A program made the position numbers and the translations under genes. From NCBI GenBank assembly GCA_951802425.1, contig OX637794.1, forward strand, positions 4,464,001 to 4,528,000: DNA of 64,000 nucleotides, written 5' to 3'. Below are positions 776 to 64,000 of the stretch, in pieces. The first letter of the stretch is position 1. Every line of letters begins with the position of its first letter. The DNA comes from Clavaria fumosa (Eukaryota; Basidiomycota; Agaricomycetes; Agaricales; Clavariaceae). Under the pieces are notes generated by a model. It did not search any database. It had not been told where the DNA came from and was given only the letters and a program-made list of their open reading frames with translations.

Positions 776-779
776 ACTG

Positions 780-16553: not shown

Positions 16554-16656
16554 TTGGTTGAAATACATCTCACGCTCGATTTCTGTGCCTCAACGCTTTT
16601 TTCTCTTAACCATCACCATCTCCGCTGCTGTTAGCTGCCCCTCTCCCCCTCATTTC

Positions 16657-16718: not shown

Positions 16719-16739
16719 CTTGGTAAGTCTTCCACAACA

Positions 16740-35479: not shown

Positions 35480-36385
35480 GTGGCATCCACCAGACCTATT
35501 GCGATAGCCAGAAAAATATCCTGCATGCATCCGCTGGATCTGTTAAAGTGACCAGAAAATATCCAGAATGCATCCGCTGGATCTGTTGAGAAGGCTAGAA
35601 AAATATCCTGGATGCATCTGCCAGACTGATTGCAATGGCCAGAAGAATATCTGGGATGCATCCCCCAGATCTGTTGAGAAGGATAGAAAAATATCCTGCA
35701 TGTATCTGCCAGATCTGTTGAGAGGGCTAGAAAAATATCCTGGATGCATCTGCTGGACTGATTGCAATGGCCAGAAGAATATCTGGGATGCATCCACTGG
35801 AGCTGTTGAGAAGGATAGAAAAATATCCTGCATGTATCTGCCAGATCTGTTGAGGTGCAAGAAAAATATCTGGGATGCATCTGCCGGATCTGTTGAGAAG
35901 GATAGAAAAATATCCTGCATGTATCCGCCGGATCTGTTGAGGTTCAAGAAAAATATCTGGGATGCATCTGCCAGATCTGTTGAGAAGGATAGAAAAATAT
36001 TCTGCATGCATCTGCCAGACCTATTGTGATAGCCAGAAGAATATCCTGCATGCATCTGCCAGATCTGTTGAGAGGGCTAGAAAAATATCCTGGATGCATC
36101 TGCCGGATCTGTTGAAGTAGCCAGAAAATATCCAGAATGCATCCACCAGATCTGTTGAGAAGGATAGAAAAATATCCTGCATGTATCCACCAGATCTGTT
36201 GAGGTGCAAGAAAAATATCTGGGATGCATCTGCTGGATCTGTTGAGAAAGATAGAAAATATTCTGCATGCATCTGCTGGACCTATTATGATAGCCAGAAG
36301 AATTCCTGCATGCATCCACCAGATCTGTTGAGAAGGATAGAAAAATATTCTGCATGCATCTGCCAGACCTGTTAAAGTGGCCAAA
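35480..36385. repeat. 44-bp minisatellite, about 20 copies
   Basis: Units such as gcatctgccagatctgttga followed by gaaggatagaaaaatatcct repeat with small variation; some adjacent units alternate between two subtypes (gaaggata and gtgcaaga or gggctaga variants). The period of 44 is not a multiple of three, so a given strand stays open in all three frames over long distances. The resulting reading frames are not evidence of a protein. Confidence 0.88.
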
Positions 36386-38178: not shown

Positions 38179-38839
38179 TCAATTGAGCGACATCTGCCGC
38201 CGCATAATCTCCCGCTTCCTCTCGAGTTGCTCGGATCTGGTCTCGGCGCGCTTCTTAGGACGGGGTGAACGCGCTTGTCGCTGCATGATCTCTAAGCGCT
38301 TGCTTATCGGGCAATCACTCGGCGCTTTCGTGGGACAGCCAGCGATTGACGGGCGAGAAAGTGCGCCGGTCCTTGTATCCTGGCGATGCAAAGATAAGTC
38401 GGGCGCGTAATATATTATTATCGGAGAGGAAGCATGTGGGATACACGTACGTAGACGCAAGCGGTGTCTGTCCCGGTTGTGTAGCTGACAACCATTTACT
38501 GACGTTCCGTATGATAAGGAGACAGTTTGCCCAAGACTCACAAGCAGGAGAGACCAGAGGGGGTAGTTGAATGATGATTGAGTGTCAAACCATTGGGACC
38601 AGTTGATGGGCATTGGAATTGCTGTAGAGTTCGCCAATCGGTGATAGGATCCCTCTTCAGCGGCGAGATGCAGAACTCACGCATGGAATATTGGGTCGTG
38701 AACTTGGGCTTGGGCTTGGGCTTGGCCTCGAACTGGGACTTGGCCGACTCGGGGAAATGCTTACAACACCTGTTGCCTGCACAAAGGCGAATAGGAGGTG
38801 TAAAACGAGAGTGAGCGCGGCAGAGGTGGAATACCGCAT
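38179..38839 (-). CDS. Small secreted cysteine-containing protein, 4 exons
   Basis: Exons 38839-38765, 38654-38542, 38484-38451 and 38379-38179 splice in phase to 140 codons plus stop, with donors gtaagc, gtgagt and gtacgt. The first exon encodes a signal peptide (MRYSTSAALTLVLHLLFAFV then QATGV). The mature part has Cys in FQCPSTG, LSCFYTTG, TACVYDTRTGALS and AGCPTKAPSDCP, the spacing of small secreted fungal proteins. The tail (SKRLEIMQRQARSPRPKKRA and beyond) is strongly basic and could be processed. No domain was recognised. It lies about 250 bp downstream of the Hel2-like gene on the same strand. The model rests on phase consistency of three short introns; the first-intron donor has alternatives. 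Confidence 0.6.
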
Positions 38840-39090
38840 GTTTGACCCGTGGGGGCGCTGGTCAACCCTACGCCACTCGGTCAAGACTGTGAAACCTCTT
38901 TATATGATAGGCGCTGTGGTGGAGCATTATTTGTGTTCTTTGAGTTATGTCTCGCGCTCAACCCCAGACGACTGAGGCCATGATACGTGACGCGCGACAT
39001 TTGATCGATCGAAGATGTGCCGAAGGGTGCCGATCAACAATGCCAAACATCCCGAACAAGGGTCATGGTGGCGATGGTTGGCTCGTTGGC

Positions 39091-41549: not shown

Positions 41550-41805
41550 ACAAATGGCAGCAACCGTGTTTGCAGTGGGGAAGGAGCAGAGAGATATTCA
41601 ATGGGAGAGAACTTCCCGCGTTGGAACGACGGCGCGACAATTAGCAACTTCGTTGTGGCTCTGCACAGCAGACTGTGTTATAGCACCGTACTGTAATACA
41701 GCTACTGTAGCGACACCTGTGCATTTTTGTTGACCGTTGTAGTCCGTAGTCAACCAGAAAAAAAAATAAAGAACGCTTGTTCGACAGCAAAATCAACGAC
41801 ATTGG

Positions 41806-44560: not shown

Positions 44561-44979
44561 CTTCGGAAAAGGTGAACTCTGAGGCAAGTGATGGTCAGGA
44601 TCCCAGTGTGTACTCTGATGAAGACAGTGTCGATTACGACAAGCACGGCGAGGTGGTCAGTGCACTAGCAGAGATGCGGCAATTCCGCGCGGTGTGTTCT
44701 GCCACGGTGTTGCCAGAGAAGGAGCAAGAAACCGAAAAAAATATTCCTGGCTCACACAAAGGATCCCGCACTCAATCATTAAGCCTCAGATAATAGTCTA
44801 AGCATCTATCTACTATAATAAGGACCTCGGCAGTTCTTGCATCGTCCGAATATATCGCGGATAATGATGCCTCGGTTTTTGCTAGACTAGACCAGACATC
44901 TGGAGGGTAATAACGACCAAAAGTGAAGCCAAGTGAGCATATCTGCAATCTTGCCTCCGTAACGAAAGGGGTTGGAAGA

Positions 44980-46557
44980 TCAATAGTGATGCACCTGCAA
45001 AATTGGGGAACTAAGGATGCAGGTGTCACTTAAAGCAATTCTGCAAGACTTACTTCTTCTCTCTCCCTTCCCCTCATGAACGGGGGTTCTGTACCTTTGT
45101 AGTAGATATCGGTCCAGAGGTCTTTGACAGGAGGTTCGGGGGATGCCTGTGCTTCTTCGACTGCCTTATCCACCTCAGCCTTAGCTTCTTTGTCGAGGCC
45201 CTAGAGAACCGTGATGTCAGTGTCGCAGAAATATGTATCTCTGAAGACTAACCTTGAGTTCCTGCTCTGTAGCGAGGCCCCATTCCTCGATGTTACGCTG
45301 GAGACCACGAATTGGATCTTTTGTACTCCGCATGCGTTGGACCTCCTCGCGCGTGCGGTAGGTGGTTCCTGGATCAGACATTCTGAGAGAAGAATAACCT
45401 TAGCGGCAGACCGGATGGTTATTCTCAGCGATTGACATACGAGTGACCTCCATAACGATACGTGACGAATTCCATGAGCATGGGTCCTTTGCCCTCTGTG
45501 ACCCACCGTCTGGTATACTTCACGGCCTGGTAAATAGCGATGATGTCCATTCCATTTACCTGAGCAACGCCCTTGTATCAGTAGATCACCGCATTAACAA
45601 GAGACACTAACCTGCAGGCCAGGAATTTTGTCTCCGCGTGTAAAATACTCCGTGTTCGATGAACTACGCTCAGCGGATGTGCCCATGCCATACTTGTTAT
45701 TCTCACACACAAATACACAGGGTAAGTCCCAGAGCTTGGCCTAAAACGCGACTCTTTCAGCGTGTTATTTAAAGGTTAACAAAAAATGAAGGATACCATG
45801 TTAAACGCTTCAAAGACCTGTCCTTGGTTGCTCGCACCGTCACCGTACAAAGCGAAGGTCGCATTGGGAGTCCCCATATATTTCTGAGCGAATGCCAGAC
45901 CGGCGCCCACCGGAACCTGCGCACCCACGATGCCGTTGCCGCCGAAAAACGACGGCGTGAACATATGCATCGAGCCACCCTTGCCGTGCGACATTCCGGC
46001 TTGTCGACCCAAGAGTTCAGCTATGACGCCTTTGATGGTCCCGCCACGCATAACAGCGAAAGGATGGCATCGGTATGCTGTAATGACACGGTCATCAGGG
46101 AGGATACCATGCTCCAAACCAACAGAAACTGCCTCCTGCACCATGGAATCAACGACTTGCATTGGTAAAAATTACAACAGACGGACCTGGCCAACCGCCA
46201 GATGGCAGAAACCACGAATGAGCTTGGCCTTGTACAGAGCGTCAGCTGCCATTTCCATGCGACGCATCGTGTTCATGTGCTTATACATGGTCAAAAGCTT
46301 GTCTTTTGTGACCTCAACCTCGAGGTCAGGTGGGTCGCACATGTACGTGCGAAACGATTCTTCATGGAGTCTGACTTTGAACGGGCTTGAAGGATCAGTT
46401 GGAGGCTCGTGCAGCTGAGTTGTGTCTGCCGTGGTTTGTACGGCTCTTGCCAAGGGCTAGAATCCTTCATCAAAACGAAAATACCAAAGCGAACGAGACG
46501 CAGACAACGCACAACGCGACGAAAAGCCCGGTGTGCTGTGCGAGCGAGTATTCCCAT
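44980..46557 (-). CDS. PDA1: Pyruvate dehydrogenase E1 component subunit alpha, 8 exons
   Basis: Exons 46557-46513, 46456-46187, 46135-45797, 45740-45612, 45559-45441, 45382-45253, 45200-45054 and 44994-44980 total 1194 nt (397 aa), all in phase. The basic start [20 protein letters not shown] is a typical mitochondrial presequence. The thiamine diphosphate motif runs from [15 protein letters not shown] (about residue 203) to CENN (about 233). The phosphorylation loop [19 protein letters not shown] is present, as is the [29 protein letters not shown] substrate region. The E1 alpha2-beta2 tetramer decarboxylates pyruvate in the mitochondrial matrix. The last exon (VHHY then stop) is only 15 nt and could instead read through to a nearby stop. 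It begins 93 bp after the ARMC8-like gene ends. Confidence 0.93.
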
Positions 46558-46650
46558 TGCGAGTGTTGCAGCGTCTGGCGACACGAGAATCTATGTGCCA
46601 GCAATCCGGGCCGTGGGTACATATTGCTATATACAGCGTAGACTACAATT

Positions 46651-49394
46651 TCATGAGGCAAGTTCAAACTCGGTCCCACTACTCTCGATTAAATGTAAAG
46701 CCTGCCGTGCCTGCTCCACCATCTCCATATCGTCCCCGACACACGCTATCGGGCCTCTCGGGTTGACATTGACCGTGGGTGTGTGCTCGGAGATGCGCCT
46801 CAACGTGGAAGTGACCCCAATTTCCCCAAAGTCGCGACTTGCTTTTCTCGCATCGGCACGGGCGAGCTCAAGGACGCATGTAACGGCCGGTCGTCGGATC
46901 TCTGTTTTAAAATCGGAGAGACAGGACCGTAAGCAACCAAGAATCTGCCGATTCGACAGGATGATGTCTTTCTGGGCGGTCTGGCCGTTGGCGAGATTGG
47001 CGAGTGTTCGTGTGGCCTTTTTTGACAGAGTGTAAATTAAAAGGACAGTGTACCTGATCAGGCACGCACGTGAACAACCACATCCTCATCAGAGGAGCCC
47101 AAAGCCGTCAAGAAGGATTCGAGAAGGACGTCCGGCCCTAATTGGCGCAGCACCATTTCGACTCCGGTCTCGTTTTCGACAAGGTTGCAGAGGATGTTCC
47201 ACGCCTGTGCTTGAATATTCGTGTGGGTATCGAGAAGCAAACTGGCATTCTTCAGCGGTTAGGGTTGTAATTCCGCATAAAAGCAGACGTAACACTGACT
47301 TGGCTAGATCCCGCCAGCCAAGATGATCCATGACTAAACATTTCGTTTCCGTAGATGACTTTCGCAGAAGGTTCTTAATTGCCCATAGTGCGCCTGTCTG
47401 TAAGTCTGTATATCCAGAAGAGATGAGCTGAACGATTCGCGGGATGAGACCTTCTTCGAGCAAAACCTAAGGAACAAGGTCAAACTGAGAAACTTTCAGG
47501 AGCAGATGCAAAGGTTTACGGGACGTAATGGAGAAAAATCGTTGACAAGATTGCAAACGGCTGCCAAGGCGACTGAGGTAACTCTGCGGTCTTCATCTTC
47601 CTTGTTGAACAAGGCGAACACCGAAAGACCTAGTCCGCTGTCAACGATATTGGTGCGAATGACTGCGACTGCACGACTCAAGACTCGCACGCACTGGCAC
47701 GCTGCGTAGCGCACCCCGACGTGTCCGTCAGAAAGACCGGCGTGTATGACAGGTACAAGATTCAGCTTTTCTGTGACTTCGCGCCGGATGTCGTTCTCGA
47801 AAAGGCAGAGGGTTGCAATGGCCATGAGAGCCGCCTGAAAAGCGATTACATGTAACGCAGGACAGAACTCGGATATAGGGCTCACTTCGCGAAGGCTAGA
47901 TATACTCTCAGATTCTTCCCTATCCCATTCGGTTCCTCGGAGAGGGGTAATGGAAGTGACCAAAGTTGAGAGCTTGCCAAGGGACCCATGTTGAAAGGCG
48001 TTGCGACAAAATTCATGATCGTCCGTCACAAGATAGTCTGTTTCTCTGCTAAGTAGCACAACCGACAAGACGAAGGGAATGTGGCTCACAGAGAATGAAG
48101 CACGCTTTGGCCTTTGCTTCTGGTGGATCCATGGGCGAGGAGAAGATCTGATTCAGAACATGTAAGATGGTCAATGCAGCAGACGTATGACCAGCTTGAT
48201 TCGCTCGAACAACCCGTGTAGCACTGGCAGAACGCCCTCAGTAATGGCTATGCCGGGAACACACGCATACCATAGACAGGCTGCCAATTGAATATCGACG
48301 GAACGGAATTTTGAGAGTGAAAGTATCGTCGATAAGGGTGAAGGAACTATACCATGATTCAGCGCACTGTTCTCGTGCAGACAAAAACATGCGCACGAGC
48401 ACCATTAAGGGGACCTCTACAAAGGGCCGCCGAGATCGAGGAATTCTCCTTCGCCAGTGCCGCTAGAGCAGACAGAGCGGCTTCTTGCAGCTGAGCCACA
48501 TATCTTAGAGGTCAAAAGTGCAAGACGGGATTGGGACATCACAACCGACCTTGCCGTTACGGCTTTCAAGATGAGCTACAAGGGTTTTGCTGACCCAGCC
48601 GCTCCGGGCTGGCGACTGCATAACGAACATGTTCGGTTTCTCCCAACCGCGCCTGCCCTTCACCTCCCTGACTCGATCTGCTGGAGGAATCCATTCAGCC
48701 ACAGCATCTTGATGTGTTTGAGTCCGAACCGCGAATGCAATCATTTGAGCTACAGACGCGCATATCTCTGGAGATGTGTCGATGAGAAGAGGCATGTATA
48801 TGTCTAGCGAGTCAACCTGTAATACAAGTGAAATGAGGACTCATCAAAGACGACGAGCACAAACATGGAATATGTAGTCGAGGGTAATATTGGCTTCGTT
48901 CTGCATTTCAAGATTCTCTGGGCGTAGACCCCACAGCTGGGGTCCACTAACGTCTGCCACGGCAATAGTCAAGGTTCGGATTGCTCGCGTGAGGGCAATT
49001 CGAAGGATGACAGGATCTGAAGGCTGTAAATGTGATAGAGCGAGGAGAAGTGCTTGAGGCGCTCCGGCTTTCACCAGGGATTTAAGAGCATCTTGAGAAC
49101 CTGCAAATGAAGTCAACGATTGACTAACGCATTTCCGGAGTGGCTTCGTCAACCATACGATAGGGACGAGATGACATTCGCGGCCTCCAACCGGATGTCG
49201 CTTGGAGAGTCATGCGCGATGTCGGGTTCGTTGAGGTACATTACAAGCCTTGAAGCAACTCAGCCGAAAGAACACATCTGGAGGTTTCCCAACACTCACG
49301 TCTCCACAAAGGCCTCATCCTGGGCGAGGGCAAGCTTCGCGGTTGGGTTGCCAATGACCGCGTTTTTCGTTTCCCTCAGGGTCTCGAGGTTCAT
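46651..49394 (-). CDS. Armadillo-repeat protein, ARMC8/Gid5 (Vid28) type, multi-exon
   Basis: Start MNLETLRETKNAVIGNPTAK at 49394. Exons 49394-49300, 49248-49154, 49100-48865 and a fourth from 48816 join in phase (...SLSYGSQDALKSLVKAGAPQ; WGLRPENLEMQNEA; AVAEWIPPADRVREVKGRRG). Later blocks show successive ARM repeats: LQEAALSALAALAK, DIQLAACLW, AALMAIATLCLFENDIRREV, GVRYAACQCVRVLSRAV, LLEEGLIPRIVQLIS, LWAIKNLLRKSS, QAWNILCNLVENETGVEMVL and TIANLANGQTAQKDIILSN, ending at a stop at 46651-46653. This matches ARMC8, the scaffold subunit of the GID/CTLH E3 ligase that degrades gluconeogenic enzymes in yeast. The joins around 48300-48450 could not be resolved in frame; an unusual intron or a lesion is possible. 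Confidence 0.75.
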
Positions 49395-49944
49395 CACAGT
49401 CACCCGTTGCTGAACTTTGGTCGAAGAGATTCGCGCTTCTCCTTGTGGCAGACAACGAAGCGTAGGTGCTTCGGCGCTTACTTTCTCGTCTGGTCTCTCT
49501 AATAGAGGCGTTACCCAGTGACGCGAGGTCACAATTAACGGCGTGCGGGCTTTTCACAGCGGGCGAGACTCCGCGCGTCTAACTTAGAATCCCACACTCA
49601 GCTCTCGTATACGGCTGAGTATCTTAACAGTCCTTACAGCTTTTTTTCCAACTCATCCACTCGCTGCAAAACTTCTTGCCATATATACTGCGTCGCTCAA
49701 CAGCGATGAGCACAATGTCTCGCGCTTTCAAAAAGCTCGTCGTCAGGAATAGTTGAGACTTTGTCAGAAACTCCAAATGTCTCTGTCGGAGTGGCCACAA
49801 TTGGAGTCCAATTGTGGCCACTCCGACAGAGACGTCCACCATCAATCCTGCTGCCCCAATGCCCGAAGACACAGTGCCAGTCAGTACACAACTACTATTA
49901 TTTTCTTATCTAACATTAATCCTTTGGCCAAAGCGGGTTATTAG
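49395..49944. other. Junction region between gene island and repeats; unidentified short frame
   Basis: Promoter side of the ARMC8-like gene, then a minus-strand reading FGVSDKVSTIPDDELFESAR and, after an in-frame TGA, IWQEVLQRVDELEKKL ending near 49635. It resembles the tail of a coiled-coil protein but was not recognised. It is bounded on the right by a perfect palindrome. Confidence 0.35.
49779..49833. repeat. Perfect 27-bp palindrome with a single-base centre
   Basis: 49779-49805 and 49807-49833 are exact reverse complements around one G (arms begin gtctctgtcggagtggcc). It lies at the switch from gene-island sequence to the Crinkler-type exon. The plus and minus readings through it are the same peptide (VATPTET). 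Confidence 0.9.
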
Positions 49945-50092
49945 CCTTTGGTGTCTTGTTGATACTGATACTACACCATTCAAGGTCGATGTCCCTGTCG
50001 ATTTCAAAGTGAACCGATTGAAGGAGCTCATCAAGGAGAAGAAGAGACCCGAACTCAATCACCTTGCTGCCAATATGCTCATCCTCAGGGAG
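49945..50092 (+). pseudogene. Crinkler-type (CRN) ubiquitin-like N-terminal exon
   Basis: Between an acceptor ttattag (ending 49944) and a donor gtaagc (50093) the reading is LWCLVDTDTTPFKVDVPVDF, then KVNRLKELIKEKKRPELNHL and AANMLILRE. The LWCLV start, the acidic-Thr-Pro-Phe turn, LKxLIKEKKxP and the D/N-xLxLW-like end are the hallmarks of the ubiquitin-like header domain of Crinkler proteins, which occur in oomycetes and some fungi. No start exon could be joined in phase upstream. Downstream the gene is lost where a retrotransposon copy begins at about 50476. Only the header fragment is annotated; no effector or nuclease-like C-terminal domain is present. Confidence 0.65.
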
Positions 50093-53000
50093 GTAAGCAC
50101 ATCGTGAATAGCAACCTTGATCGCAGGGCTCATACTGTTGTTTGATGAAGTAAGTGCTTCGCCCCCGCTTCTCCTCGCTCTCGCACTTGCTACAGGACAG
50201 GCGGTGCTATAATGTGCTGCCCTTTCATTCAGCCTTCTTATTCTCTACATTATCTATGTGCTGTCAATTACCTGTAGATACTACTTATACCAGCCTTGGA
50301 CAGTAGTTGAGAGTTCATGCATTGTTGCACTACTGCATGAACTCCAGGTTTGTACATACAATTTACCTTACTCTACTTTACAGTAACTAATAACTAAATG
50401 TGTTGTTGCACTACTGTGTGAACTCCAGAATTGTCTCAGTGTGCCTGTGCTGCTGAGAGATTATGAGACCTGGCAATGGCCAGTAAATTGTGTAGTGTAC
50501 AGGGCACAGAAAGGCCCTCTACATAGTCTTTCTGTAGTCTCCTGGTCCAGTGGACAGGGCCCTTGCTCTGTGACCATTGTCAGAAGGGCACACAGGCAAC
50601 TCATTAGGAGTTGTGGAGTGACCACCTGGGACACCATTTGGGCCCCATGTTAGCAATAGTTTCATAGAATAAGAGTTCTATAGGTACATAAGTACTAGAA
50701 GAGCAGCCTGAGAGGACAGGACTGTTAAGAGATCGAAGAAGTCCTGAGTGCCCAAGGCCTGGAAACTTTATTTTACAGTGCCCTAAAATGATGCTGGACC
50801 TAGCTGTTGCCCCCTTTGATGGGCAGAAAAGGAACTTTTGTACGTTCCTCTGATTGCTTCGCCTCCGATTTATGGCGAACCCTACTGTCTATGCCACAGA
50901 CCTGGCAAAGGTCCTCTTTGCACTGAGCAAACTTGGAGATGGATTTACTGCTGAATGGGCAAATGTGAAGGTGGAAGAGATCCTGGGTAATGGTGCAACC
51001 GGAACCTGGGTGGAGTTTGTGGAAGAGTTAAAGTGGGTGTTTGGTGACCTGAACAACCCAGTGACAGCCCTCGCAGATATCGCAGGGTTGAAACAGGGCT
51101 CCATGACAGCCCTGGAATTCTTTACAAGGTTCAAAACACTGTTCCGCCAGGTGGTAATGACTGAGGTGGCCAATTCGGACATCCTGGTCCATTGGCTGGA
51201 GCTGAACCTGAGTAGGAGGTTGGTGGAGAGAATCTATGGTGTCTCCCTGATGCCAGAGACATATGGAGGATGGAAAGTGCTGGCAGAAAGACTCGATGCC
51301 CAGCAAAGGCGACTTGATGCGATAGTTGTGGAATGAGACCCACAACCCACCGCGACCTTTCCGCAACCTCTTGCAACCCCTCTGCAGTGTACTCCAGATG
51401 TAACCACGGGCCAAGGTTGGGCCCCTGCCAAGAGACGTTGTTTCCGATGCCACCAGACAGGGCATGCTGTCCGTTTCTGCCCCCTGCCTGACATGCGTCT
51501 GCAGGTCCCAAGAGCCCGAACCTGTGGAGTGCCAGGTACCCCCCAAACAATGGAGGATTACCAGAGAGAGATTGTGTTGCTCCAAGCAAAACTGGAGCCA
51601 CTTGAGAGAGAAAGGAGGACTCTGGCTGGAGAGAAGAGTTGTTCCAGCCCCCATTCCATCCCTGTGCCTGCAGCAAGTATACTGAAGTATACTATCTTGC
51701 AGCAGAGACATACCCGAATTGGGGCTGAGGTGAAAGAGGAAGTGAGACTGGCAGAGCACCCAACCAAGGTGCAGCCAGAGGTGGAGAAACATGTGCCACG
51801 AGAGCTAGCCATCCAGGTGCACTTGGAGGCCCTCAGCACTGGCAAGTGGGCTATGACAAAGGCCCTTGTCGACTCAGGATGCACCAACTGTTTCATGGAT
51901 TTGGAGTGGGCAAAAAGAGTGGGCCTGGAGCCATCTCCCTTGCTGAACCCAATCACGATGTACAACGTGGATGGGTCACAGAACAGAGAGGGTAAAATCC
52001 AGTTTGGAATTGAGCTGCTGGTGAAGGTGGGCAACCATCGTGAACAGGTCCATTTCCTGCTGGGAAAGATCCAATCCCACAAGGCCATCCTTGGGCATGA
52101 CTGGCTCAAGCGACATAACCCTGACATCGACTGGAAGAAGGCAGAGCTGAGCCTTACCCATTGCCCCACACAGTGCTTTCCATCCCCATGAGCCCCTGCA
52201 CCCCTGAAAATGAGTACCCTCGCATCTGCGAGTATTCCGGACACCTGTTTTCCCAACTCTGGCCCCACCCCTGATTGGCCCAGCTGCTACCCTTTGGTTT
52301 TTAGTGAAGTGAAGTGGGACGAGCTTCCCCGCTCCTGACCGGACTTTGATATCAAGATCAAGTTCAAAAAGGACCCTGAGCACCTCTCCACCAAGCTATA
52401 CTCTTTGACACAAGATGAGATGGTGGAGATGAACTGTTGGGTGGATGAGCAGCTGGCTTCTGGACATATCCGGCCCTCGAAATCCCCGTATGCTAGCCCT
52501 TTCTTCTTCAAACACGAGAAGAACAAACTGCAGCCAATTATTGACTACTTGAGGCTGAATGCGCATCTGATCAAGGACAAGTACCCCCTCCTGTGCATCT
52601 GAGACACAGTGGATGTGCTTAAGGGAGTGTCAATCTACTCTAAGATTGATGCAAAGGGAGGTTTCCCATCCATGCAGGTCTGGCCTGAGCACCAGCACTG
52701 CTGCACCTTCCTGACACCCCATGGACTCTTCGAACCAGCCGTCATGTGGTTTGGACTGCAGAACACACCTGCCACCTTCCAGCATTTCATGAACCATGTG
52801 CTGAGGGAGGAGATTGCAGGAGGGCATGTCCAAGCATATGTGGATGATGTCATTGTGTGTGCAGAGGATTTGGCTACACACCAGTATTGGATGGATCAGG
52901 TCTTGAGGAAGTTCAGAGAGAATGGGTTGTGTCTCAAACTCAGTAAATGCAAGTTTGAGAAGAGTGAGATCATCTTCCTGGGGATGAAGATCTCTCAGAA

Positions 53001-53812
53001 CCATCTGGAGCATGACCCAGCTAAAGGCGCAGTGATCTGTAACTGGCCATGACCAAGGAATGTGAAAGAGGTCCAGAGGTTTAATGGGATGCTAAACTAC
53101 CTCTGTCAGCACATCCCAAATCTTTCTGCCTGGGCAAAGCCACTCTTCTGGCTGACTGGGAATGTTCCATGGAAATGGGAGGAGGAGGAGGAAGCAGCCT
53201 TCCAAGATCTCCGCCTGGCACTCGTATTGGCCCCTGTCCTGGCTCTACCACAGGATAAAAGGAGATGGAAGGTAGAGATGGATGCAAGTAACCTGGCGAC
53301 TGGTGGAGTGCTCTTGCAGCAGCAGATGGACAGAACCTGGAGAGTTGTGGACTATATCTCCAGTGCCTTCACTGCAGCTGAGAAGAACTACAATGTGTAT
53401 GACAAGGAGTTCTTAGCTGTGATTCGGGCACTTTGCGAGTGGTGGGCATACCTCATTGGAGCAGATGAGATGATTGAGATCTGGATGGACCATGCGAACC
53501 TCCAGTACTTCTGGAAGCCCCAGAAGTTGAAACCAAGACAGGTCCGTTGGGTTGGGGAGCTCCAGTGCTTTGACTTTGAGATAAAGTATCACACTGGCAA
53601 GTCAAACATGAAGGCGGACACACTCTCCTGGAGACCAGACTATGGAGAGATGGTGGAGGAGGATGCACCAGTGCAGGTTTTCCCAGAAACAGAAGTCTGT
53701 GTGTCATTCACATCAGAAATGGAGATGCTACTCCAGACAAATAGCGCGGTACACATACAGAAGCCGGAGGAGCTTGATGACAAGTGGATGCAAGATCGTG
53801 CTGGACTCTGGT

Positions 53813-54750
53813 TAGTGTTGCTGCAGCTTCAAGCTGAAGCCCAGCTGGTCATAAGCCAAGCCGAGCCAATTGATCAGCTTGGCTTGACATCAGCTTCAGC
53901 TTCAGCTTGAGGCTTTCTCCAAGCTGCACAGCTGCTGCTCAAGCTGCGGCTCCCAAGACATCCATCAATGGGGCAAAGAATTGTTTTTTTCCTCTTCCAC
54001 TGCCCTCCACTGCCCTCCACTATGCTTATCTGGGTCTGCAACTGTTGTCTATCACCAGGCAGCTGCTTCTCTCTATTCTTGTATGCATGGTTAGAGACAT
54101 TGATGTCTGTCAATCCTGCCCTGGAGGAAGATCTTCTTGGAGATATGTTACTGGATGACTTTGACACTGTGTTTGACAAGGTATTAGCCACCATTGCCCA
54201 GGATGATGATGATGAGATGTAGTTCTATAATGGTATTTTTGTAATTCTAGGCCAGTTCCCATTATTAGTTGGCTGCAAGCCACAGCTAGCCAGCTGTAGC
54301 CACAGCTACAGCTTGAGTCAGCTTCAAGCTGCAGCTGGAGCTGCAGCCACGGCTACAGCTTCAGCTTGGGCAAAACAAGGTCAGCTTGTGAATAGGGATG
54401 CCACGGTCCGGTTAAGTCCGGTTCAGGGCTGAATTTTTCGAACCCAGAACTGGACTTTAGGTCCGGTTCAGGCCAAATTCTGAACCTTAAACCTGAGTTC
54501 GGTCCAAGTCCGGTTCGTTGGACCGGACTTTTACTAAATAAGGTAATGGTTCGCCCAAATTTGGGCTTCTGAACCGAAATTTTGGTTCGGTTCACCCACT
54601 TGGCTGAACCTGAACCTCATTTTCAGTTCGGTCCAGTCCAGTTCAGGTTTGAACCAAAGTTCAGAACCGAACTGTGGCATCCCTACTTGTGAAGCCGAAG
54701 CTGCAGCTCATTGAGCCGGCTTGGTGGCTAGCTGAGCTGCGGCAACACTA
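53813..54750. mobile_element. hAT-type MITE A (938 bp) with perfect 8-bp TSD
   Basis: Ends tagtgttgctgcagct and (reverse) tagtgttgccgcagctc form the terminal inverted repeats. The target actctggt is duplicated at 53805-53812 and 54751-54758. It interrupts copy 6 between RNase H and integrase. Subterminal aagct/cagctt motifs are dense. A short acidic frame (LLDDFDTVFDKVLATIAQDD, about 54140-54220) may be a transposase relic, but no DDE or hAT dimerisation motif is visible. Confidence 0.9.
54393..54685. mobile_element. MITE B (293 bp) nested inside MITE A, perfect 8-bp TSD
   Basis: Terminal repeats tagggatgccacggtccggt and (reverse) tagggatgccacagttcggt; target cttgtgaa duplicated at 54385-54392 and 54686-54693. 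The interior is built of short ggttcgg / gtccggttc phrases in both orientations. hAT-type by TSD length and TIR start. No coding capacity. Confidence 0.9.
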
Positions 54751-56231
54751 ACTCTGGTGAAAGGGGATAGTCACTTGAGTCCCCCTAGGAGCTCGTGAGG
54801 CCATCCTCGAGTTTGAGCATGACCTCCCTGCTGCTGGACACCCTGGGCCCCGGAAGTTGAGAGCAGCACTAGTGAAGGGTTATTGGTGGCTGGACATAGT
54901 GAAAGATGCAGATCAGTATGCCCAGGGGTGTGAGACCTGCCAGCAGACGAAGCCTGACTGTACCAAGCGTGCTGCCCCACTGCACCCCCACCCTGTTCCC
55001 GATGGTCCCTGGTCAGTGATCTCATGGGACATAGTCAGTCCCCTCCCCCTCTTCTGTGGACATAATGCCATCCTTGTCATCATTGACAAGTTCACAAAAT
55101 GGACACTGCTTGAGGCAATCGGACTTGACCTCATGGGACTTGGAGCAGCACGTCTCCTCCGAGATCGAGTGTTTCGGGACCATGGAGTCCCTCATAAGGT
55201 CATGAGTGACTGAGGCTCCCAGTTTGTGTCTCAGTTCATGAAGGAGTTCTACTCTATGATCCAAGTAAAGGCAAACCTGAGTACAGCCTTCCACCCACAG
55301 ACTGATGGGCAGACAGAGCAGGTGAATCAGGAGATGGAGATCTATCTCCGGGCCTATGTGGACCACCTCCAGGACGATTGGGCCAAGTGGTTGTCAACTG
55401 CGGAGTTTGCTCTTAACAATCGTGAGCACTCCACAACAGGACAGACACCTTTCTTCCTCGACTATGGCTGGCACCCATGGAATGGGGGACTCCGCCCACC
55501 TTCTGAGGTGAACCCAGCAGTGGACAAGTGGATGGCTAAGCTCATGGAGTCCCGAAGAGCAGCCAAGGAGGCAATGGAGAAAGTGGCGGCAGCAATGAAG
55601 AAGAGCTATGATAAGGGGAAACACCCGAGTTGGGAGTACTCTGAGGGAGATCTGGTCTGGCTGGATACTAGAAACTTGAAGATGGACCAGCCCTCTAAAA
55701 AGCTCAACAACAAGAGAGCAGGCCCCTTTGCAGTTGAGGAGAAGGTGGGACCTGCTGGGTACCGCCTCAAGCTCCCTCGGGCCTGGCACATCCATCAGGT
55801 CTTCAATGAGTTGCTGTTGATGCCATACCATCCCCCTTCCTTCCCTTCACAGAACCTGCCTCCCCCCCCTATGATTGATGATGACCACCTGGAGTATGAT
55901 GTGGAGGCGATCCTTGATGTTAAGAAGGTGGGGCATGGGGTGAAGTACTTGGTGAAGTGGTTGGGATATCCAGTTGAGGAAAACACTTGGGAGCCCCGTA
56001 GGAACCTCACTAATGTAACATTGCTTCTCCGGGACTTCTTCCTCTCCCACCTTGACAAGGCCAAGCTAGCTGGTTGGGATGCCCAGCCTTAAGAGGGGGG
56101 TGATGTTAGGATTGCTTACATAAGCCATCCCAAAGAGGAGTTATGGAGAAACTGGGGAGGGTTGTTGGAAGGTCACATGACCTGTGGCTGTGGTCAGATT
56201 ACATAATCGTAAGATCACATGACCTGGGCCT

Positions 56232-56616
56232 GCTGAGCCTGAGCCTGGGCTTTCAGGCTTGGCTGGGCTTTCACATCACTAGTCAATGCATGGTATGATT
56301 AGAAGACTTAATGTATCATACAATGAGTCAGTCAACCAGAGATGCCAATGTATGGGACAATTAGAGCAGTCAATATATTGGCTATTTGACTAGAGTGGTC
56401 AATGTATCATACAACTAGAGGTGGCCATGTATTAGCCATTGAATCAGAGGGGTCAATGCATGGCATAATTAGAAGACTTAATGTATCATGCAGCCAGCCA
56501 GTCAATCAGAGATGCCAATTAGAGCAGTCAATGTACCATGCAATCAGCCAGTGAACAGAGGTGCTAATGTATGGGACAAGTAGAGTGGCTACCTTGTGAT
56601 TACAATTGGCCATATA
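56232..56616. repeat. Degenerate tandem motif region
   Basis: Phrases such as gtcaatgtatcatacaacta and gacttaatgtatcat recur every few tens of bases with varying spacing up to about 56600. No gene seen. Confidence 0.55.
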
Positions 56617-57260
56617 TCATTCTAGGTGTTCTAAATCAGAGGAATACATACAACACTGGAAAATGGTAATGAGAACCAATTCATACATGCTGCTACCAGG
56701 GTCTGGTGACTGCTCACTTACCATGCCCCACTCCCTCAGCTGGTACCTCACCCCTTGATATGGGACCAAGACTGCATCAGATAGTCTGTAGCCAGCATTG
56801 GCAAGGTATTGACCAGGGGGGACTGTGAAGTCAGTCACACAAGCATCTTCAAAAACTTGACTATCCGATGCACTGCCCTCCCAACCAGACAATACATAGA
56901 GGGAAAGCATGTCCATTGATGTGACAGCAAGCACATTTTGAGAGACCTGGCCCTTGTGATTGCAGTATGTGGCTCACAGGACTTCCACAACAAAAGCAGT
57001 GACATGAGTTCCATCCAGGGCATCAATACAGTCCTGGAACCAGGGGAAAAACTTCTTTGAGCACTGGATTTCTTCAGGGATAGATGCATCCACAGAAGGG
57101 AGCTTGACATATGTGTTGTACACAAGCTTTGATGTCAAGGCACTGAGCACCCGATGAATGATCCTGGATATTCAAATGGATCAGACAGAAAATCAGGGGG
57201 CATGCTATGATGCACATACTTGCTCTGTAATACTTTCTATCCCTCAAAAGAACTGGACTC
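56617..57260 (-). pseudogene. PIF/Harbinger DDE transposase fragment
   Basis: On the minus strand: VYNTYVKLPSVDASIPEEI, FFPWFQDCIDALDGTHVTAF (first catalytic Asp region), then after a TGA ATYCNHKGQVSQNVLAVTSM, LSGWEGSASDSQVFEDA (second Asp) and YRLSDAVLVPYQGVRYQL. This is the order of the DDE_Tnp_4 domain of PIF/Harbinger transposases; the C-terminal Glu region is missing. A probable intron (gtatgtgc...atatccag) lies near 57170-57220. The 5' side is cut by the LTR of the next element at 57288. Confidence 0.78.
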
Positions 57261-57287
57261 AACTGTATATTGAGTATGGTAGTTCTA

Positions 57288-57452
57288 TGTAGAGGGATCT
57301 ACCCTCTCTGTACAGTCGCGACGCGATATATATATAGGCGAGTGGCCCTCTAGGGGCCGCTGATGTAAGCATGGCCTAAGCGGCTATGCTAGTAGACTAT
57401 TATAGTATGTATATTATGTAATAAAAGAATAGAGAAGGCCTATAGCCTTACA
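57288..57452 (-). repeat. 3' LTR of the second Ty3/gypsy element
   Basis: About 165 bp. On the element strand it begins TGTAAGGCTATAGGCC and ends ATCCCTCTACA (canonical TG...CA), preceded by the polypurine tract GGAGGGGGAGGG (57453-57464 complement). It contains tatatatatagg. The second LTR is outside the window, so the left boundary is inferred. Confidence 0.72.
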
Positions 57453-57749
57453 CCCTCCCCCTCCGGAGAGGCCCCAACCAGAGGCAACGCGCGGGCGGTG
57501 CGGGACGACGAGCAGAAGTAGAATAGCGTTACAAGGGGCGCATCCCCTTGGGCAGGGTTACCGCCATGTCACCGGGCGCGATCCTCTCCTGGGGCCTTCG
57601 CCTGGTGCTGACGGGTCCTACCCGGTGGTCTGCGCGACCTGCCCCCAGTTGGACAGCGTGTCACGAGCGGCACGCCCCGGTGGGGGGTGCCCCAAGTGCC
57701 GCTGTCTCGTCCTGCGGGGTAGGCATATGTTTTTAAAGGGCTCGGACGC

Positions 57750-59141
57750 TTAGTCCGAGCCCTGCTCGTAGTCGCACGGCGGCTCGCCCTCGTCGTCGCT
57801 CCAGTCGGGCAACGACACAACAGGCCCCTTCGCGGCCTTAGCGGCTGATGATTTAGCCGCTTTCTTCTGTTTTTGAGAGGGCCCCGCACCCTCTGTCTGG
57901 GATATTGTTAAACCCCCAATAGGTAGCCCTAGGGGGTTTCTAACGGTGGACGTGCTTCCACCATCTTCCAGGGGCGCATCGCCCCTCCGTTCGTCTCCCG
58001 CCTTCTTGCTTAACCGAAGATGGCATGGACGCGCCCCACGCCCTATGCACTCTAGCAGTGCATATGTCCGGGGCGGTACGGGAGGCTTCTCCCGTTCACC
58101 CAGTGCTAGCTGGATATCATCGTCCAAGGGGGCATTCCCCTTTCGCACGTACTCGCGTGCCCACGCGAGTACAAACTCGTCCCAGAACTCCGTTTCCCCA
58201 ACGGAGACTCCGGCGTCTACAAATGCCTCAATCGTCTGCGCGACGGTTGGCGTTATCTTTGTGTTCCAGTGCCTGGAACATCGTGCAGGGAGGACTCTCC
58301 CTTTAATGGCCTGCGCGTACGCCCCCTTTGACACAAAGAGGGCTACAGCCATTGCTAGGAACGGGCGCCGCATTCGGGCCCGGGATGGTGCGCACGCCAT
58401 TATGGTACACCAGATGGCCACCTTACGTGCCAAGGACAGGGGTGAATCCCCGTCCTTATCAATACCAAGGACGGCCGCTCTGCCCATCCTTATGTCGGCG
58501 GCCCAGCAGCGCAGGTCTGACACTGCGCCTCTGTCGCCTTTCGGGTTCATAGGGGGAATTTCTCCCTTCTCCCCTACAAAGGAGAGCCACAGCTCTTGGG
58601 GGAGCAATGGCTCCCCGGTCTCTACAAACTCCCTAATGGGAGGCGCAACCACTCTTGCCGCTGTCAGCGGCAATGTCTGGTACGATGGATAGGAGGGTGC
58701 TCCCCCTCCTGCGACTTCCAAGGGTCCTGCCCTCAGGGATGGGTCGCCCATCCCTCCGCTCTCTCGCAACATCTGCCCCTGCAGATGGCATGCCACCCGG
58801 TCTGCCGATTTCTCGACGCCGGCAGGAACTCTCCAGTTCCTCAACAGCCAGTCCTCAACTGGCGTAGGCAGCTTTCCCGCTGCCGCGTTCTTCTGGGCCT
58901 CCTTAACGGCCCATCGCATCTTCATTACGGCAGTCATATCATAACTGCCGTCAGGCGCTCCATGGTGCGCCTGCTGGTTGAGGGCTATCACCTCTTCAAC
59001 CGTCTTCAACTCGACAGCCCACGCCCCGGGCTTGACAGACATCCCCGATGGCCAGGGATAGCCATCCGGAGCCCTGTCCAGGCGGGGGGCATTAAAGGGA
59101 TAACCCCTTGTCGGAGGCGCAAGCACCGTCTCCGCAAACAT
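57750..59141 (-). CDS. ORF B, 463 aa, downstream of integrase; unknown function
   Basis: Starts at ATG 59141 immediately after the TGA of ORF A (TGAATG) and stops at 57750-57752. The N-terminus TRGYPFNAPRLDRAPDGYPW with PSGMSVKPGAWAVELKTVEE resembles uncharacterised multi-copy fungal proteins. The middle is mixed alpha-type; the C-terminus is Ala/Lys-rich then acidic (LPDWSDDEGEPPCDYEQGSD). No membrane anchor or signal peptide, so not an obvious envelope. A Gag-like structural role displaced to the 3' end is one possibility. The stop codon lies in the loop of a 9-bp perfect hairpin (57738-57762). Confidence 0.7.
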   Translation of the reverse strand: MFAETVLAPPTRGYPFNAPRLDRAPDGYPWPSGMSVKPGAWAVELKTVEEVIALNQQAHHGAPDGSYDMTAVMKMRWAVKEAQKNAAAGKLPTPVEDWLLRNWRVPAGVEKSADRVACHLQGQMLRESGGMGDPSLRAGPLEVAGGGAPSYPSYQTLPLTAARVVAPPIREFVETGEPLLPQELWLSFVGEKGEIPPMNPKGDRGAVSDLRCWAADIRMGRAAVLGIDKDGDSPLSLARKVAIWCTIMACAPSRARMRRPFLAMAVALFVSKGAYAQAIKGRVLPARCSRHWNTKITPTVAQTIEAFVDAGVSVGETEFWDEFVLAWAREYVRKGNAPLDDDIQLALGEREKPPVPPRTYALLECIGRGARPCHLRLSKKAGDERRGDAPLEDGGSTSTVRNPLGLPIGGLTISQTEGAGPSQKQKKAAKSSAAKAAKGPVVSLPDWSDDEGEPPCDYEQGSD

Positions 59142-59897
59142 TCATTTATGCCTCAGTGAGGCATCGGGGTTCTGCTGGCTAACACCAGCAGGTGGAAGAG
59201 GGGGATACCCCTCTTCAATGTTCATGGGGACGTCCACGTCCCCCATAGGCGGTGCTATGTCCGCGTATGAGACAGCAGTGCGGGCCCTTTTAGGGTCCCG
59301 CTCCAAGGGATCCCTGTCAGGTCCCTTCCCTTTCGCTGCCGTTCGCACCGCGGCGAGCTCCTCGTTGGCGCTTGCCAACTTTTCTGTCAAGGAGAGAACC
59401 TTCTCCTTCGCCTTTCTAAGGTCGGCCTCGACCTTATCCAGGCTATCGTAAGCTTTTTCAAGCTTTTGCCGATGCCCGGTGCAAAGGGCATTGCCCTTCT
59501 CATACTCTTCATGCAAGTCATCCAACTTGCATTGTATCATCCCGAGCTCCGGCTCGAGCTCACGCTTAGCGCTTTCCTGCACTTCCTTAAGCGTTTGTTG
59601 AAACGCTTCATCCGAGTGCAGCAGCGACTCGAAGATGTGACGACGGAATCCGATACACTGAGTGCACCGGGATCCGTGGGTGATCGCATGGATCATGCGA
59701 TCCTGGACCCAGGGGAGAGTTTCCTCCCCTTGCGACAACGACGGCTGGGACAACCCAGCCGTTCCGACGATGCTCGTCGGCAGCGAGTTCCCTGGCGCAA
59801 GGCCAGGGACGGCGGCGGTAGCGGTAGAGGCGGCGGCGGTAGCAGCGGCGGCGCGGGTAGCGCGAGGAGATGGGGTTTCCCCCATCGGATCATCCAT
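59142..59897 (-). CDS. ORF A, 251 aa, coiled-coil protein downstream of integrase
   Basis: ATG 59897 (MDDPMGETPSPRATRAAAAT) to TGA 59142-59144. An Ala-rich start, a short Cys pair (SRCTQCIGFRRHIFESLL), then a long charged heptad-like coiled coil (KELEPELGMIQCKLDDLHEE region to LSLTEKLASANEELAAV). The end is PPLPPAGVSQQNP. The coiled coil suggests self-assembly. Its position between integrase and the LTR is unusual for Ty3/gypsy. Coupling to ORF B by direct stop-start adjacency suggests termination-reinitiation. A hairpin gcctcagtgaggc (59150-59162) lies just before the junction. Confidence 0.7.
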   Translation of the reverse strand: MDDPMGETPSPRATRAAAATAAASTATAAVPGLAPGNSLPTSIVGTAGLSQPSLSQGEETLPWVQDRMIHAITHGSRCTQCIGFRRHIFESLLHSDEAFQQTLKEVQESAKRELEPELGMIQCKLDDLHEEYEKGNALCTGHRQKLEKAYDSLDKVEADLRKAKEKVLSLTEKLASANEELAAVRTAAKGKGPDRDPLERDPKRARTAVSYADIAPPMGDVDVPMNIEEGYPPLPPAGVSQQNPDASLRHK

Positions 59898-60031
59898 TGT
59901 AACAAATGGCTGATGAGGAAAAAAGAGAAAAAGAGGGCAGGCCCTCTTAAGGTTTTGTACCTTACGGTGGAGCCACCACGTGACTTAGTCACTGTGGCTA
60001 ACGACCCAGCGGTCTGGCTCGATCGCGTTTA

Positions 60032-63000
60032 CTACTCCGCACGGGCGTTCCGTCCACGCTCTGCTCGAGGGCGCCTAGGTAGCGCCCTCCACGAGTCTAC
60101 ACCTTGTAGTTCAAGGTAATGGTCTAGAGCAGCCAGCTCTTTGACCCCCATGTACGGCTCCCAGGTCATATCCCCGAGGTTCCATCGAACCTCGCATTCC
60201 AGGTGGCGGCCTTCCCACCTATGGCCAATAATGGCGTCTACTAGCCATTCCTCCTTTGGATCCACACCAAAGTCATAAAAGACTTTCACTTCACAACGCG
60301 GAAACAACGCGTCGTCGTTTGGTTCATGTCGCCGCAACCGGCTGACATGGAACGTCGGGTGGATTCTCCTCGACTTAAGCGAGTCGGGGAGCTCCAGCTC
60401 GTACGTAGACGATTCCGGTCTACATGACCGTATTGGGTATGGCCCAATAAACTTCGGCATGAGCTTTCTAGCTCGTTTTTTAGGGAGATTCAAGTTCTCC
60501 GTTGAGAGGTAGACTAATTCTCCCTCTCTAAACGGGTGCTCTGCCTGTCTACGCTGGTTAGCGTAAAACATTTGGTGGACACGACTTTCTATAATCGCGT
60601 CGTGCGCCATTGCAAGGTTGAGCGCGGCTTTCTCCGCGAACATCCATACCCCTCTGGGCACCGCCCGGAGGTCGTCTGGCAACTCTGCCATCATCTGGGG
60701 CATGTACCCATAGGTGAGCTCAAATGGGGCAAACCCCGTCGACGCGCTTATTGACGCGTTAATGGCGAATTTGACCATTGGGATTCGCTCCGCCCAGTCT
60801 GTCTGGTCCGGTTGGACCACCGATCGGAGGATCTGAGACATGGATCGGATCGACCGTTCCGTCGCTCCATCCGTCTGCAGATGGAAAGCTGTGGACATCC
60901 GCAGCTTGACACCGAGTAATCGGTGTGTTTCCTGCCAAAAGGCAGACGTAAATCTCGGATCACAATCGGACACAATCGATCCTGGCAACCCATGCAGTCT
61001 CACTACCTGGGTTAGGAAGAGCCAGGCTAGCTCTGCTGCCGTTACCGAAACGGTAACTGGTACTAGGTGTACCAGTGAAGTGAGGCGGCAGATCACCACC
61101 CAGAGGTAGTCCGCCTCTTTCGACATAGGAAATGGACCTACGAAGTCCATTCCTATTGATCCCCAGGGCCGCCTGGGGATCGGAAGGGTGTGTAGAAGCC
61201 CCTGCGGCTTCTGAGGGGAAGTCTTGCTCATTTGGCACATGCCGCACGACGAGCAAAACTTATCGATGTCTTTAGACACCGATGGCCACCAGTATTAACG
61301 GTGGACGTAATCCATCGTTATCCGCGCCCCCATGTGTCCTAGGACCGCATGGGCTTCCTGGATTATTCTCCCAGGGATGCTTTTCCCTTCATGAGGGGTA
61401 CGAGGCACACAGAGCACCTCGTCTCCTTTTTTATTCTCAGCTAAGATCAGGTCATCCCTGATCTTAAAACCGGTGTAGTTTCCCGGTTTCTCCAAAATTA
61501 TTTTGAACAGGCGATCCTGTTCATAGCTGTCCTGGATGCTTTGCAGCATCCTGCTATCCCCCCCTTCCACGCGGGGCCTTAAGGGCACGAGCGTCTCGTC
61601 CCTCACATCCCCGTCCGCTTGGGGCATAGGCGGCAGTTGCTCCTGCTCGGTTTCCTGGTCCGCGGCAGGTGCGCGTACTCGCAGTGCGCGCACCTCCTCC
61701 AGGCGTCCACGGGGCAACTTGTCCCCTTCCGGGTCAAGGCGAACGTCCGCCTTTACATACTCGTGATCTGGATGAATCTCATCCGTCGCGTCACTCATAT
61801 GGTAACGCGAAAGGCCATCCGCAACTTTGTTGCTCTCGCCTTTAATGTAAGTGATGGAGTAGTTAAACCTCTCCATATATTCCATCCACCTGGCCTGCCG
61901 GCCAGACAAGCGCGTTTGGTTCTTAAAGAACCCCAGCACTTCGTGGTTGGTGACCACGTTGATTCGTCTACCGAGGAGTTTATCCTCCCATTTCTGTAGC
62001 GATTCTACAATCGCTAAGGCCTCCCAGTCCCAGGTTTTGTAACTAAACTGGGCTGGGCTAAACCTTTTAGACATAAACCCCGCCGGACGGCAGGTTTCCC
62101 ATGTCTTTCCCTGGCCATACATGGCCCCTACGCCCGACACTGATGCGTCGCACACGAGCCAGATTGGGTCCTGTACTGCCGCGTCTACCGGGCGTAATAT
62201 TGGCGTTTTACACGCCAATGCCTTAATCATCTCCATGCACTTGTCATGGAGTGGTCTCCAGTGAAACGTTCGCGTTTCACTACACAGACTAGCCAAAGGG
62301 CCAGTGTAAGCGGACAGATCGGGCTTGAACTGTCCGATGTACTGTACTAATCCAAGGAACCTCTGCACCTCGTTAACACTTGTCGGCGTTTTCCAGTTAC
62401 GGATTTTATCCATTTTATCCACTGTGACGTGGATTCCTCGGGCATCTATAATATGCCCTAAGCAATCTATGCTCTTCGCGTATAACGAGCACTTCTTCTT
62501 GCTCAAGAAAAGGCTCGCGCCTTTGAGGGTCTCAAAGACCATCTTTAAGTGACGCTCATGGTCCTCCAGGGTCTTGGAGAAGACGAATACATCGTCTAAG
62601 TACATGTGCACGTACTTTCCCAATTGATGACGAAATATATGCGTCATCAGGCGCTGGAAGGTAGCAGGGGCATTACAATCCCCTATCTGCATCACCTGTG
62701 AGAACATGGTGCCCAAGACGGTCGCGAACGCCGTCTTCCACACGTCCTCAGGCTCTACGTGTACTTGCTCGTACGTGTCCGATAGGTCAATCTTTGACCT
62801 ATACGCGGCTCTAGCCACGTCCTGCCTGATCTGGTCCTGATCAGGCAACGGGGTAATATCCCGTACTGTGTTCGCATTCCATTTCCGACAGTCCACGACT
62901 GTCCGTAGCAGCGGGTTCCGGCTGCTTTTTGGTATGCATAACATAGGAGCTGCTTGCGATGCCGCTCCTGCTTCCCACCAACCATTAGTAATATAACGGT

Positions 63001-64000
63001 TCACTTTCTCAAGGAATTGTTCCTTAAATGCCTCAGCACACCGAGGCAGGTAATAATTATAGACTTGCTTTTCGTCTATTAAGGGTATGCGGTGGTTCAC
63101 CGCCCGAAACGGCGGCGGTCTGGGTGGAACTCCCCCAAAGAGCTCAGCGTACTGGTTAAACCAGTACTCACGCCTGCCTTCGAGGTAGGCGTCGTCTATC
63201 TTTACAGAGGCGCTAGCCTCTCCCCCCTTCCAGGGCTCACCTGCATCCCGGGGGCCCGAGTGTAGTCAGCTCTTTCGAGCTCCCTTCCTCGGCGCGTTCT
63301 TAGCCGATATACGGACACATAATGCTTCCGTCTCCTCACTGGGCGACATCGCCTGAAGGGTTTTTCCCTTCCCTTCGCCAATCCGGATTGCACGTCGGTG
63401 CACATCCAGTATCACACGGCGGTCATACATGAACGCCGTTCCGACTATGATATCATAGCGGTTGATGTTCGCTATATCAAAATACTGGTCCTCCACCAGT
63501 ATTCCTCCCAAATCCACCGCTATGCGGCATCCGCGTGTGATCGTCGATCGGCTGCCGATACAGCCGAGTTGGATAGGAACTGGATTATCCAGTTGGAAGG
63601 TTGGTACCTTTGTCACCCAGGCAAAGTCCGGGCTCATCAGGTCCGGGGTACTTCCAGAATCGAAAAGCGTATACGCTTTTACACCGTTCACGGTGATGTA
63701 GGCCGCGAGGCATTGCCTAGCCTCCTTTGTTACTACCGGGCGCGATCCCGTCCGCTCCTTCCGGACGTGCGCCCGAAATGGCCTGTCGTCGACATGGCCG
63801 ACGTGTACTTCTGTCGTGTAGAGGACTTCATCCTCTTCTAATTCCCGGATTCCAGCGACCTGGTCGCTTTCTGCCTCCTCCTCGAGCTCTTCAAGGACAA
63901 AGAGCTCGTCCGAATCGTACTGGTCCCCGCGACCAGCGTAGTCGTCTTCCGCGACTTCCTCCGGTAGGGCTTCACCCTCCGGCTCCTCGCTTTCAACCGC
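60032..64000 (-). CDS. Polyprotein of the second Ty3/gypsy element (partial at the right edge)
   Basis: One reading frame from the window edge to 60032. Acidic upstream part, protease AYTLFDSGSTPDLMSPDFA (about 63680), then RT from VNHRIPLIDEKQVYNYYLPR (about 63100) with YLDD in HMYLDDVFVFS, RNase H WLVCDASVSGVGAMYGQG, integrase zinc region, DFVGPFPMSKEADYLWV, IVSDCDPRFTSAF and STAFHLQTDGATE. It ends in a chromodomain-like module (VDAIIGHRWEGRHLECEVRW then GDMTWEPY). Two in-frame stops occur: TGA 63266-63268 between protease and RT, and TAA 61295-61297 between RNase H and integrase (YVHR-stop-YWWPS). Otherwise it is intact. The protease and RT wording recalls a gypsy family widespread in Agaricomycetes. 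Confidence 0.88.

Follow-up and report, generated by a model that had tools for sequence, protein, structure and literature searches.

Short perfect hairpins saturate a Ty3/gypsy retrotransposon of Clavaria fumosa, with loop inversions that point to template switching

A Ty3/gypsy retrotransposon on the minus strand of a 64,000-nucleotide stretch of Clavaria fumosa DNA (hereafter the window, whose numbering is used throughout) carries perfect short hairpins through its protein-coding sequence at a density far above every null model applied. At five of these hairpins the loop is inverted between copies while the arms stay intact or nearly so, and inversions of this kind are on record as a trace left by template switching between inverted repeats. 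We give a probability of about 0.5 to the reading that a ratchet of such switching in the element's own replication, most likely in reverse transcription, made the hairpin tiling.

The element was delimited by its LTR pair and pol domains, and is made up as follows.

57226–64000, minus strand, the part of the Ty3/gypsy element inside the window; its outer end lies at 66153, outside the window
57226–57452, minus strand, 3' LTR, one of the LTR pair
57453–57749, minus strand, 297-bp stretch separating the 3' LTR from the last ORF, without hairpin excess
57750–59141, minus strand, ORF A, accessory coding region, 463 aa
59142–59984, minus strand, ORF B, accessory coding region, 280 aa
60032–61294, minus strand, integrase part of pol, 420 aa (PF24626 and PF17921 above the cut-off, PF00665 below it)
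61295–63265, minus strand, reverse transcriptase and RNase H part of pol, 656 aa (PF00078, PF17917, PF17919)
63266–64000, minus strand, protease region (PF08284), in an ORF that runs on to 64420

The two LTRs (57226–57452 and 65927–66153, the latter outside the window) are 227 bp each and 98.7% identical. Between them the gene order on the minus strand is gag region, protease, RT-RNase H, integrase and accessory coding region; the two flanking LTRs and the domain order PF08284, PF00078, PF17917/PF17919, PF17921/PF24626 are those of a Ty3/gypsy element. A domain search of the integrase ORF at E 0.001 gave no chromodomain (PF00385), and for this reason the element was not filed as a chromovirus. 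ORF A and ORF B, split in the window copy, form a single frame in 10 of 20 other copies (715–755 codons, stop to stop). No Pfam family matched ORF A, and scoring of candidates gave it a single relative (P0121, 59% identity). Relatives of pol include P0001–P0003, at 59–63% identity, and its named matches came from agaricomycetes (Phanerochaete, Peniophora, Trametes, Pleurotus). A nearby host gene, for a ubiquitin hydrolase, had named matches from basidiomycetes, with a top identity of 40%. The genome comprises 48.8 Mb in 17 contigs, and one hairpin pattern of the element, that at 64697, matches 111 places in it.

All 21 stems listed in the original prediction proved perfect at their positions. 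Several stems are longer than had been claimed (11 bp at 57737–57763 and 10 bp at 61158–61181). An exhaustive count at 57700–64000, with loops of 0–15 nt, yielded 68, 37, 17 and 4 perfect stems of at least 7, 8, 9 and 10 bp, respectively, against means of 5.0, 1.4, 0.27 and 0.08 in 60 dinucleotide shuffles. Across the internal region (57453–65926) there are 50 stems of at least 8 bp (1.8 expected) and 182 of at least 6 bp. The latter lie at a mean spacing of 46 bp and cover 42% of the bases, with 1.6% doubly covered.

The hairpins had been placed inside the RT, integrase, ORF A and ORF B coding sequences, and each of these holds an excess of stems of at least 8 bp over synonymous-codon shuffles. 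The excess was 13- to 18-fold in all five ORF pieces: ORF A (8 against 0.4), ORF B (10 against 0.8), the integrase part (4 against 0.2), the RT/RNase H part (10 against 0.8) and the protease region at 63266–64000 (4 against 0.3). It persisted in shuffles that keep codons together with junction dinucleotides. The comparison with codon- and dinucleotide-preserving shuffles that the original prediction had called for came out in its favour. Chance, base composition or codon bias as the source of the hairpins is refuted by the dinucleotide, synonymous-codon and codon-plus-dinucleotide shuffles, which all fall far short of the observed counts, and we consider its probability negligible. The same pattern was seen in 20 further copies, some of them partial, with 64–96 stems of at least 7 bp per 9.4-kb locus. 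Six more RT regions, 85–96% identical to the window copy, hold 13–19 such stems where 1.4–2.3 are expected; two of the six are nearly identical to each other, and two have only 3 stems of at least 8 bp. The excess is confirmed as real and strong.

Within the window, the saturation is specific to this element. Stems of at least 8 bp numbered 2 (1.8 expected) in the chromovirus at 3110–8705, 2–4 (0.8–2.0 expected, 2.1- to 2.7-fold) in other chromovirus pieces, 3 (3.9 expected) at 30001–50000 and none (1.2 expected) at 1–3100. In 64 1-kb bins outside the element, stems of at least 6 bp averaged 4.3 against 3.2 expected, a slight general excess. The pattern had not been noticed in the other elements or genes, and chromovirus and host sequence in the window stand at 0- to 2.7-fold, with two stretches excepted. 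One is the chromovirus copy at 50480–56232, with 11 stems of at least 8 bp against 1.2, seven of them in an inserted repeat at 53812–54750. The other is 12280–16900, with 7 against 0.8, three at 16657–16887 and four at 12947–15299. The right flank (66154–74000) has 7 against 2.1, of which three are long hairpins at 67678–67803.

Several other repeats and ORFs were recorded in these control stretches. The insertion at 53812–54750 comprises two nested repeats, an outer one of about 580 bp and an inner one of about 300 bp; both recur across the genome, are rich in inverted repeats and are labelled MITE-like by us. Perfect hairpins of 15–27 bp with loops of 1–8 nt occur at 49779–49833, 16657–16718 and 67678–67803, and are possibly ends or cores of MITE-like elements. 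The stretch 12947–15299 with its four stems holds an ORF with a Pol_BBD domain (13638–14483). At 35483–36394, offsets in a self-comparison show a tandem array that repeats about every 44 bp. An ORF at 2092–3129 encodes a PIF1-like helicase domain (PF05970), and we take it to be a possible Helitron remnant.

Stems are 6–11 bp long, 11 bp being the maximum, and loops in excess measure about 1–12 nt with a peak at 4–5; the excess is weak at 13–15 nt and gone beyond. Loops of zero length show no excess (3 stems of at least 6 bp against 2.7). Stem ends are abrupt, with a Watson-Crick rate of 0.21 over the three pairs past the first outer mismatch. The pattern extends beyond 64000 toward the 5' LTR, and the LTRs themselves have a weak excess of stems of at least 5 bp (10 against 3.6 in shuffles for the 3' LTR and 9 against 4.0 for its partner). 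None was found in the 297-bp 3' stretch, which has 4 stems of at least 5 bp against 5.0 expected and, over the 20 copies and the window copy, 3.6 stems of at least 6 bp per kb against 4.8 in shuffles.

The hairpins sit in codons with little visible cost. Codon registers that pair third with third positions are the rarest, at 41 of 154 (synonymous shuffles, 11.2 of 29.9) and, when stems of at least 7 bp are taken, at 19 of 83. Filtering by protein function would predict this. Conserved residues are intact in stems about as often as elsewhere, both in RT (74% of 81 in stems, 80% of 211 elsewhere) and in the integrase (92% of 36 and 91% of 159), and the hairpins show no avoidance of conserved columns. 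Stem codons match the commonest residue of relatives about as often as other codons do, which leaves hairpin-directed recoding, another cause that had been suggested, without support. The hairpins had been described as differing in sequence, and this is true of the 37 listed stems of at least 8 bp. Inserted palindromic elements, whether of the Rickettsia type or like the bypassed mitochondrial elements, were rejected on the basis of these differing sequences and of the position of stem codons in relative-aligned columns, with mean conservation equal to that of other codons.

RNA folding bears on a first rival reading, selection for a folded sense RNA. Here synonymous sites would be tuned to build stem-loops along the transcript, which would protect it against RNA interference, RNA-dependent RNA polymerase or nucleases, or aid packaging. 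MFED reaches 28% in the sense strand, whereas the chromovirus controls give 0–5% and the host controls -1 to 2.5%, and the sense folding z averages -5.9 and lies below -1.9 in each of 28 windows. The confinement of loops to foldable lengths, the harmlessness of the stems to protein and the richness of the coding parts relative to the 3' stretch also fit, as does the first mismatch just outside stems, which leans toward G-U over A-C (24 against 14 among shared mismatches; 241 against 192 over 20 non-independent copies). Inside the stems, however, sense G-U is not commoner than A-C (13 against 14, or 10 against 14 when the count is limited to mismatches that at least 60% of copies have in common), and the antisense MFED is 25.6%. 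Of the features of genome-scale ordered RNA structure, the element shows the low folding energy through the coding region and lacks the sense pairing rule, G-U above A-C in stems. The in-stem mismatches are strand-symmetric, so that there is little support for selection acting on how the sense RNA pairs. The mirrored CpG losses of inserted copies also count against it (25 compensated, 36 not), although such copies may be free of selection. The selected genome-wide fold named in the original prediction is consequently not well supported; we judge it unlikely, and less likely than the template-switch ratchet.

Strand symmetry would suit a reading in which hairpins are selected in the DNA or on both strands, for instance as folded single-stranded cDNA or as cruciforms extruded in the integrated copy, with the purpose unspecified. 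The weak LTR excess agrees with this as well. Against it, no need for such hairpins is known, zero-length loops, which would be best for a plain palindrome, are not in excess, and the 3' stretch has none either. This reading appears improbable.

Variation among copies bears directly on template switching. Outside hairpins, copies differ from the window copy at 3.8% of positions, mostly by transitions. C-to-T changes affect 9.9% of CpG sites and 0.6–1.5% of other C. This background is decay after insertion, and its CpG bias suggests that inserted copies are methylated and deaminated. Loci with at least two transversions within 3 nt numbered six among the 20 copies, two indel-misaligned stretches having been left out, and loop inversion accounts for five of the six. 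These five hairpins, and one with an uninverted loop, are given below.

58149–58172, 11-bp hairpin with a 2-nt loop (58160), CC in the window and GG in three copies with data of the 20; inverted in 5 of 47 copies in a genome-wide pattern search
59869–59886, 7-bp hairpin, loop (59876) TTTC changed to GAAA in 1 of the 20 fetched copies and in 2 of 80 genome-wide
62260–62281, 9-bp hairpin, loop (62269) TTCG changed to CGAA in copy L037; 1 of 85 genome-wide
Hairpin at 64697, loop (64708) with GG/CC inversion; a count by eye over 100 listed places of the 111 gave 50 GG, 47 CC and 3 with another loop
Hairpin at 65790, loop (65799–65804) GCCTGT/ACAGGT, the inversion being exact from the ACCTGT form present in other copies; inverted in 2 of 68 copies genome-wide
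57737–57763, 11-bp hairpin whose loop holds the ORF A stop codon; inverted in none of 86 places genome-wide

The hallmark of template switching, exact inversion of the loop between intact arms, is present. At 58149 one inverted copy shares its flanks and stem variants with three non-inverted copies, and a tree of 21 copies (no support values) implies at least three loop changes at 58160 and at least two at 64708. By stem length, inverted loops were found at 0 of 106 testable hairpins of 5 bp, 0 of 71 of 6 bp, 1 of 37 of 7 bp, 0 of 21 of 8 bp, 2 of 13 of 9 bp and 2 of 7 of at least 10 bp. Six of 22,707 cells at stems of 3–4 bp also scored as inverted, probably by chance. One-base loops showed no complementary change in 276 cells.

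Changes in the arms gave a less uniform picture. No clean arm-rewriting event was found among the 20 copies, and the outcome of a test for which arm had been rewritten varied across thresholds. One candidate lies in gag of the window copy, which has been rearranged to a 6-bp hairpin (65369–65381) at a place where 12 other copies are longer; it is compatible with fold-back copying and also with two deletions. A patch of differences in copy L032 was set aside as an alignment artefact, produced by rearrangement of the window copy. Many candidates of 7–10 letters came up when templated insertions were sought. Covariation of the arms, suggested by 18 pairing-preserving double changes, was left unconfirmed, given how often mirrored CpG losses went uncompensated; at one hairpin counted by eye, 12 losses were compensated and 12 were not.

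The mirrored CpG losses, among which paired changes are not common, give no sign of arm correction after insertion or of chromosomal correction, and make the process more likely to act in the element's replication cycle. Loop inversion alone does not place it in reverse transcription, because host DNA polymerase does likewise in yeast (PMC8604942). Template switching by the host polymerase on chromosomal copies, with the element as the mere place of sighting, would draw on this precedent of loop inversion in coding repeats of yeast chromosomes. The window's chromovirus copies and host DNA lack the saturation, however, and the mirrored CpG losses stay uncorrected; we rate this reading as slightly more improbable still than selection on DNA hairpins.

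In the template-switch ratchet, a strand under synthesis would, on reaching an imperfect inverted repeat, fold back or jump to the complementary strand, copy a few bases and return, so that the arms are perfected or the loop is inverted. Changes that spoil the protein would be purged, and hairpins would build up where codons permit. The five loop inversions, the strand-symmetric in-stem mismatches, the abrupt stem ends and the pattern-free chromovirus copies in the same host argue for such a ratchet. Against it stand the 3' stretch, which is free of coding constraint and shows no excess, the conserved residues as intact in stems as elsewhere with conserved columns unavoided, the missing clean arm rewriting and inconsistent which-arm test, and the loops that stay unchanged at 57737–57763 and at one-base length. 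Quasi-palindromes perfected by template switching in reverse transcription had been among the causes originally suggested; the loops inverted inside intact stems lend support to the switching, and we infer that the same process formed the stems and acts in reverse transcription. Somewhat short of even odds, and offered tentatively, is the further proposal that the reverse transcriptase folds back or jumps between strands unusually often. It would then work as an inverted-repeat ratchet that, over many cycles, brings the entire retroelement genome to a tiling of perfect hairpins within the bounds set by its proteins, while loops flip as a by-product. If true, the form of this genome would be set by copying bias and not by function.

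Inverted-repeat conversion by template switching has been reported as scattered events, and no description of this degree of saturation was found in the literature searched. In this case the protein genes of a single mobile element appear saturated by it, and the element has many genomic copies whose loop and arm states are countable. The element is a natural system in which to ask how the lengths of stems and loops, together with coding constraint, set the balance of hairpin formation. It also cautions that a strong RNA-fold signal can appear without evidence of selection on RNA pairing.

Among the papers listed, the literature search turned up no hairpin-saturated nuclear retroelement. No DNA of pol relatives was found in viral contigs, and the listed matches within this genome held only this family or variants of it, and no second family of the same pol clade. 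Template-switch mutations are described as creating and maintaining RNA hairpins, one copying event giving a perfect stem or an inverted loop (PMC8794818); that case concerns rRNA genes with functional structure, whereas ours concerns protein-coding sequence. Positive-strand RNA viruses with genome-scale ordered RNA structure resemble the element in their consecutive stem-loops through coding sequence and high MFED (about 15% in SARS-CoV-2 and 23.4% as the highest value given in PMC7642675), the element's 28% coming from other window sizes. They differ in that the element's in-stem mismatches do not favour sense G-U and its antisense strand folds almost equally. Yeast Ty3, of the same superfamily, has a structured genomic RNA, described in the abstract of PMC11381356 as a well-folded core with dimer contacts and not as a saturation of perfect short hairpins.

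That no named class exists, as originally stated, is nearly right. The closest published case found is that of the mitochondrial genes of Nematomorpha, with many perfect inverted repeats in functional coding sequence, for which the authors list template switching as a possible source (PMC6649704). Both systems have perfect inverted repeats in coding sequence and depletion of the third-third codon register. Nematomorph arms reach 284 bp in a mitochondrial genome, whereas the element has 6–11-bp stems every 46 bp, lies in a nuclear retrotransposon and shows loop inversions between copies. In Saccharomyces cerevisiae genes, template switching is described as homogenizing arms and inverting spacers, with spacer inversion in ten genes (PMC8604942). 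The element shares with these the exact inversion of 2–5-bp spacers between intact arms, recurrent on one repeat and within coding sequence. The yeast events are scattered and confined, in that study, to arms longer than 9 bp, whereas the element is saturated and its loops have inverted at 7- and 9-bp stems as well.
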